Shown here in pieces: positions 648-785 of a DNA stretch of 40,339 bases. Every line of letters begins with the position of its first letter. The first letter of the stretch is position 1. A program made the translations under genes and the position numbers. The notes beneath the pieces are model-generated. The model saw only the letters and a program-made list of their open reading frames with translations, had not been told where the DNA came from and ran no database searches. This DNA comes from Thermoproteota archaeon (GTDB lineage Archaea; Korarchaeota; JAOZGF01; JAOZFZ01), in contig JAOZFL010000110.1 of assembly GCA_027491455.1 (NCBI GenBank), positions 1 to 40,339 of the forward strand, written 5' to 3'.

Positions 648-785
648 GGGGCCGTAGTCGAGTATGGTAAGATGCCTGCCTGGGGCTAAACCCTATAGTT
701 AACGGAACGCAGAAGGTATAGCGCCTGCGGAAGTGATCGTGGGTTCAAAAGCAATGTAAATCTGCTGGGAGTCCCACCGGCCCCA
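648..785 (+). tRNA. tRNA-Pro(GGG) with three introns (686-707, 713-732, 750-771)
   Basis: Acceptor GGGGCCG/CGGCCCC, D-arm GTCG..AGAT, anticodon stem CCTGC/GCAGG with loop CTGGGGC, T-stem GTGGG/CCCAC. 138 nt reduces to a 74-nt mature tRNA after removing 22+20+22 nt. Confidence 0.88.

Follow-up and report, generated by a model that had tools for sequence, protein, structure and literature searches.

Archaeal tRNAs interrupted by three introns are known, a tRNA-Pro among them (PMC4090602, PMC4390854), and three is the stated maximum per archaeal tRNA (PMC4033280). The tRNA-Pro(UGG) of Pyrobaculum islandicum, for instance, carries introns at 25/26, 37/38, and 56/57 (Sugahara et al. 2007, as cited in PMC4090602). 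Three BHB introns are also present in the tRNA-Ile(UAU) of the eukaryotic alga Cyanidioschyzon merolae, where they lie at 12/13, 37/38, and 53/54 and where RT-PCR evidence places removal of the anticodon-loop intron last (PMC9602550). The general principle that, of two close-lying introns, one may be unable to form its BHB until the other is gone is stated for the iterative search of tRNAscan-SE 2.0 (PMC8450103). On the enzyme side, the Crenarchaea-specific loop (CSL) gives the splicing endonuclease EndA broad specificity (PMC6379350), and a korarchaeal α2 EndA bearing this loop, along with its tie to non-canonical introns, has already been described (Fujishima et al. 2011, via PMC4033280).

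Here we describe a tRNA-Pro(GGG) gene from a 2.2-Mb Korarchaeota MAG (223 contigs, estimated 94% complete) whose host archaeon is probably heat-loving. The gene lies in a 40,339-nt stretch of DNA, contig JAOZFL010000110.1 of assembly GCA_027491455.1, which is referred to below as the window. Very probably it is a functional archaeal gene, present in one copy, that BHB-type introns interrupt at three sites: 37/38, 42/43, and 59/60 (Table 1). Like the P. islandicum gene it encodes a proline tRNA with three short BHB-type introns including one at 37/38; it differs from that gene in phylum, in isoacceptor, and in its two non-canonical sites, and the P. islandicum host group possesses (αβ)2 endonucleases. 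The C. merolae tRNA likewise has three BHB introns but distributes them over three separate arms, whereas two of the introns described here fall in the anticodon arm. The 37/38 and 42/43 pair is a specific case of the general statement accompanying tRNAscan-SE 2.0. Three-intron tRNAs and ordered intron removal are thus already known; the combination of intron positions is unusual. No earlier case of an intron at 42/43 was found in the part of the literature covered, and the site is missing from the list in PMC4090602, which itself ends in "etc."

Table 1. Exons and introns of the tRNA-Pro(GGG) gene (window coordinates; tRNA positions in the first column)
Feature	Coordinates	Strand	Description	Evidence
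tRNA-Pro(GGG) gene	648-785	+	exons 648-685, 708-712, 733-749, 772-785	
Exon 1, positions 1-37	648-685	+	acceptor 5′ strand, D-arm, anticodon 5′ strand CCTGC, loop CTGGGG with anticodon GGG	sequence; end-to-end alignment with intronless orthologues
Intron 1, 37/38, 22 nt, CTAAACCCTATAGTTAACGGAA	686-707	+	central helix CTG/CGG (plus G-A mismatch), inner helix TAA/TTA	parser; shuffles; same-site intron in family orthologue L076 sharing 3′ end CGGAA
Exon 2, positions 38-42 (CGCAG)	708-712	+	last loop base and four bases of 3′ anticodon strand	sequence; parser; contiguous CGCAGG in L076
Intron 2, 42/43, 20 nt, AAGGTATAGCGCCTGCGGAA	713-732	+	central helix CGC/GCG, inner helix AGG/CCT; 3′-side outer helix weak or absent (relaxed BHB)	parser; shuffles; absent from family and phylum orthologues inspected
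Exon 3, positions 43-59	733-749	+	G43, variable loop TGATC, T-stem GTGGG, TTCAAA	sequence; orthologues
Intron 3, 59/60, 22 nt, AGCAATGTAAATCTGCTGGGAG	750-771	+	full BHB on T-stem, central helix TTCA/TGGG, inner helix GCA/TGC	shuffles; contiguous TTCAAAT in orthologues
Exon 4, positions 60-73	772-785	+	T60, CCCAC, acceptor CGGCCCC, discriminator A	sequence; orthologues

Joining the four exons yields a 74-nt cloverleaf, GGGGCCGTAGTCGAGTATGGTAAGATGCCTGCCTGGGGCGCAGGTGATCGTGGGTTCAAATCCCACCGGCCCCA, in which every stem is paired except for a G13-A22 mismatch in the D-stem, which also contains a G10-U25 pair; CCA is not encoded at the 3′ end. The spliced 74-mer aligns end to end with intronless genes of relatives, the best of which show 83.8-85.5% identity (E values of 1e-17 to 3e-19), an example being GGGGCCGTAGTCTAGCTAGGTAGGATGCCAGCCTGGGGCGCTGGTGGTCCCGGGTTCAAATCCCGGCGGCCCCA in L002. 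A BLAST search of 101 genomes with the unspliced gene matched mainly the 5′ halves of orthologues. Such comparisons give the gene its strongest support, and they include the orthologue of a member of the same family, INS_M20_B145 (G001; L076:1501-1619). EF-2 encoded in the window is 80% identical to that of INS_M20_B145, as against <63% for the other named matches, and the window most likely stems from a deep korarchaeal lineage. The tRNA-Pro(GGG) gene of INS_M20_B145 contains two introns, one of ~34 nt in the D-loop and one of 13 nt at 37/38 that ends in CCGGAA, with CGCAGG and TTCAAAT uninterrupted. Because GCAGG and TTCAAAT are intact there, the 42/43 and 59/60 boundaries are fixed to the base. 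The registers 41/42 and 43/44 were considered for intron 2 and rejected, as conserved pairs would break, and a split or permuted gene was dismissed given that all parts are collinear. Of the two family members, both possess the 37/38 intron and only the window's lineage has those at 42/43 and 59/60; with few relatives compared, gain of the latter two in this lineage (G000) is probably the better account than two losses in INS_M20_B145.

Statistical support for the introns was obtained with an intron-aware parser, which was blind to the answer and allowed each cloverleaf to contain as many as three introns. Given the stretch up to the T-stem, its best solution placed introns at 37/38 (22 nt) and 42/43 (20 nt) at a cost of 7.2, a value reached by none of 300 shuffles (best shuffle, 9.4). 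Since the parser input ended at the T-stem, intron 3 was assessed separately. All three junctions were scored in a fixed BHB register, in which four exon bases ending two before the 5′ site face intron bases -6 to -3 and intron bases 2-4 face -9 to -7. In this register introns 1, 2, and 3 form 3+3, 3+3, and 4+3 pairs (central + inner), which shuffled introns attained in 0.46%, 0.2-0.3%, and 0.17% of cases, respectively. A BHB or relaxed BHB motif is accordingly present at every junction. Intron 3 displays a complete motif, and that of intron 1 is canonical, combining the anticodon stem with its CTG/CGG and TAA/TTA helices; the motif of intron 2 is relaxed, with a good 5′ side (central helix, bulge, inner helix) and a nearly missing outer helix. 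The central helices of introns 1 and 2 comprise just three pairs and a mismatch each, which counts against the three-intron reading.

These results largely bear out the preliminary description of the locus, which was made from the letters of the DNA. Its reading of the sequence at 648-785 was confirmed in the window, its identification of a tRNA-Pro(GGG) agrees with the spliced cloverleaf and the full-length orthologue alignment, and its three introns are recovered by the parser (the first two), the BHB register, and the orthologues, with the register of the proposed BHB elements kept at each junction. Two details required amendment: the product is a 74-nt cloverleaf as claimed but not a "perfect" one, given the D-stem irregularities, and the second intron, placed at "about" 42/43, sits exactly there, since a one-base shift breaks the conserved anticodon stem. 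We infer from the sequence that the precursor would be transcribed and cleaved.

One could instead see in the locus a tRNA pseudogene in decay that has accumulated insertions, with Pro(GGG) decoding left to another gene or to wobble. Standard gene finders do make no call here (neither ARAGORN nor Rfam reported a gene at 648-785 of the window, even at a loose threshold), a miss that is expected because the gene holds three inserts. A further copy could also be missing from a MAG in 223 contigs, and a similarity search of the same genome (G000) found neither a Pro(TGG) nor a Pro(CGG) gene; these may be absent from the assembly or heavily interrupted. Against decay stand the preservation after excision of all stem pairs but one, the identity to orthologues over the whole length, the BHB register of every insertion, and the lack of a second copy in a largely complete assembly; together they leave a pseudogene very improbable. 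Still less probable is the proposal that only two true introns exist, with the 42/43 insert being either an assembly error or excised with intron 1 as a composite intron. The shared CGGAA terminus would let the anticodon loop CTG pair with either intron, and exon 2 would drop out if cuts fell at 685/686 and 732/733. Such skipping, however, deletes the 3′ anticodon strand (GCAGG in the family orthologue, GCTGG or similar elsewhere), so that a composite 37-to-43 intron was rejected for destroying the anticodon stem, and the 42/43 insert has a BHB register of its own that is rare among shuffles. The reading retained is that of a functional gene with three separate introns.

Such a gene raises the matter of splicing order, as introns 1 and 2 would compete for bases 38-42. 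Their motifs exclude each other because both need nucleotides 38-40. In the proposed mechanism, the fused, CSL-bearing EndA would cut each motif and RtcB would join the exons; intron 3 could be removed at any time, since the T-stem is intact, whereas removal of the local 42/43 hairpin would come before that of intron 1, allowing the full anticodon stem to form and to present the canonical 37/38 motif. Folding energies were computed at 37 °C for a transcript lacking intron 3, with the acceptor, D, and T stems imposed as constraints. In the precursor, forming the motif of intron 1 costs 5.8 kcal/mol and that of intron 2 costs 4.2 kcal/mol. Taking out intron 2 lowers the cost of the anticodon stem together with the intron-1 motif to 0.7 kcal/mol. 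Taking out intron 1 instead leaves the intron-2 motif at 5.6 kcal/mol, because a GGCGC/GCGCC hairpin forms. The asymmetry of these modeled costs would favor excision of the 42/43 intron first. Against the proposed mechanism, the intron-1 motif is missing from an unconstrained fold of the full precursor, and the intron-2 motif has a competitor in an unbroken CGCAG/CTGCG hairpin.

How far this ordering can be pressed is limited by a control in which the anticodon stem had p <=0.10 at 37 °C in 9 of 22 ordinary 37/38-intron precursors. Because the folding model fails on these, a strong claim about order was downgraded. We lean slightly toward the hypothesis, drawn from the energy model, that the 42/43 intron leaves before the 37/38 intron. 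That the motifs impose an obligatory order, the first excision acting as a folding switch that creates the second substrate, seems rather unlikely. A gene as described from which the 37/38 intron departs first, or for which no order is preferred, is a serious prospect, if somewhat short of an even chance. Intron 2 still leaves room for four of the five pairs of the anticodon stem (28-31 with 39-42), EndA may remodel the RNA, and folding models are unreliable for such precursors; in every model tried, however, the GGCGC/GCGCC hairpin masks the intron-2 motif once intron 1 is gone. The preliminary description had gone further, holding that neither intron sits on a correct helix until the other has been processed. 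The conflict over 38-40 upholds part of that statement, but the four remaining pairs render it overstated.

The genome encodes machinery that may carry out such processing. A single splicing endonuclease gene is present, with a 368-aa frame containing two PF01974 repeats (fused EndA), and two repeats are found in 28 of 29 genomes of the phylum. Among PDB entries the protein most closely matches catalytic α subunits from Crenarchaeota, that of Aeropyrum included; 3p1y, 5x89, and A. fulgidus EndA align with it across most of its length, and on the basis of PMC6379350 and the aligned loop sequence we read 3p1y as an engineered A. fulgidus enzyme given the CSL. In alignment, the loop GHPIGIRKPK corresponds to the A. 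pernix CSL (GIRKPK versus DVEKPR); its lysine, equivalent to A. pernix K44, lies in the catalytic repeat and does not vary among six genomes of the phylum. A host enzyme with this loop and lysine may be able to process relaxed motifs such as that of intron 2, a type cleaved by loop-bearing enzymes. RtcB ligase is likewise encoded (PF01139 match, E value 2e-116), its gene being truncated by a contig end. Two other classifications of the endonuclease were discarded. It is not a new enzyme type, as fused loop-bearing EndA has been described for Korarchaeota (PMC4033280), nor is it the ε2 EndA of ARMAN with its three-unit αN-α-βC protomer, as it has two repeats with the catalytic one C-terminal; against 4fz2, the best common stretch is just residues 232-357. 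The window's genome thus shares the fused two-repeat enzyme, loop, and lysine with other Korarchaeota, in line with the account of Fujishima et al. In that account, as relayed in PMC4033280, K. cryptofilum is the sole such archaeon noted to have non-canonical introns; the present host belongs to a separate order and has a three-intron tRNA and several two-intron tRNAs.

A census of tRNA introns in the window's genome and INS_M20_B145, covering genes with an intact T-arm and parsing class II tRNAs roughly, identified many tRNAs with a 37/38 intron and several with two introns, one of them often in the D-loop. In INS_M20_B145, Pro(CGG) and Pro(TGG) (L150, reverse strand, 275-365; L153:271-361) contain an identical intron of ~16 nt, best placed by hand at 45/46, which suggests gene duplication or conversion between isoacceptors. 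Within the same 1.9-Mb genome, 38 of 42 T-arm motif hits fall on one 666-kb contig (C9, JAOZFT010000004.1) at about 30-448 kb, reflecting either strong tRNA clustering or something about the bin. Elsewhere in the phylum, two loci of genus g9 (L100, + strand, from 1501; L101, reverse strand, from 1501) harbor a tRNA-Pro(GGG) seemingly interrupted inside the anticodon, by an intron placed by hand at 34/35 (BHB register AGCC/GGCT). A tRNA-Pro(CGG) from the Korarchaeum family (L104, + strand, from 1501, genome G009) has a T-loop intron, likewise placed by hand, at 59/60, the site used in the window; it is of probably independent origin. Within the window gene itself, introns 1 and 2 (686-732) both terminate in CGGAA at the 3′ side, and a GCCTGC within intron 2 recurs at the 5′ anticodon strand. 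A local duplication may have given rise to intron 2.

With this gene, a korarchaeal order that has been poorly sampled joins the lineages carrying multi-intron tRNAs and is tied to a loop-bearing fused EndA, an association that would fit co-evolution of the enzyme with introns. Because ARAGORN and Rfam overlook this gene, such genomes may wrongly appear to lack a tRNA. The paired introns of the anticodon arm make splicing order testable in vitro. Across species of a single phylum, introns of tRNA-Pro(GGG) occur in the D-loop, at 34/35 inside the anticodon, and at 37/38, 42/43, and 59/60, so that this tRNA constitutes a compact system in which to study intron gain and loss.
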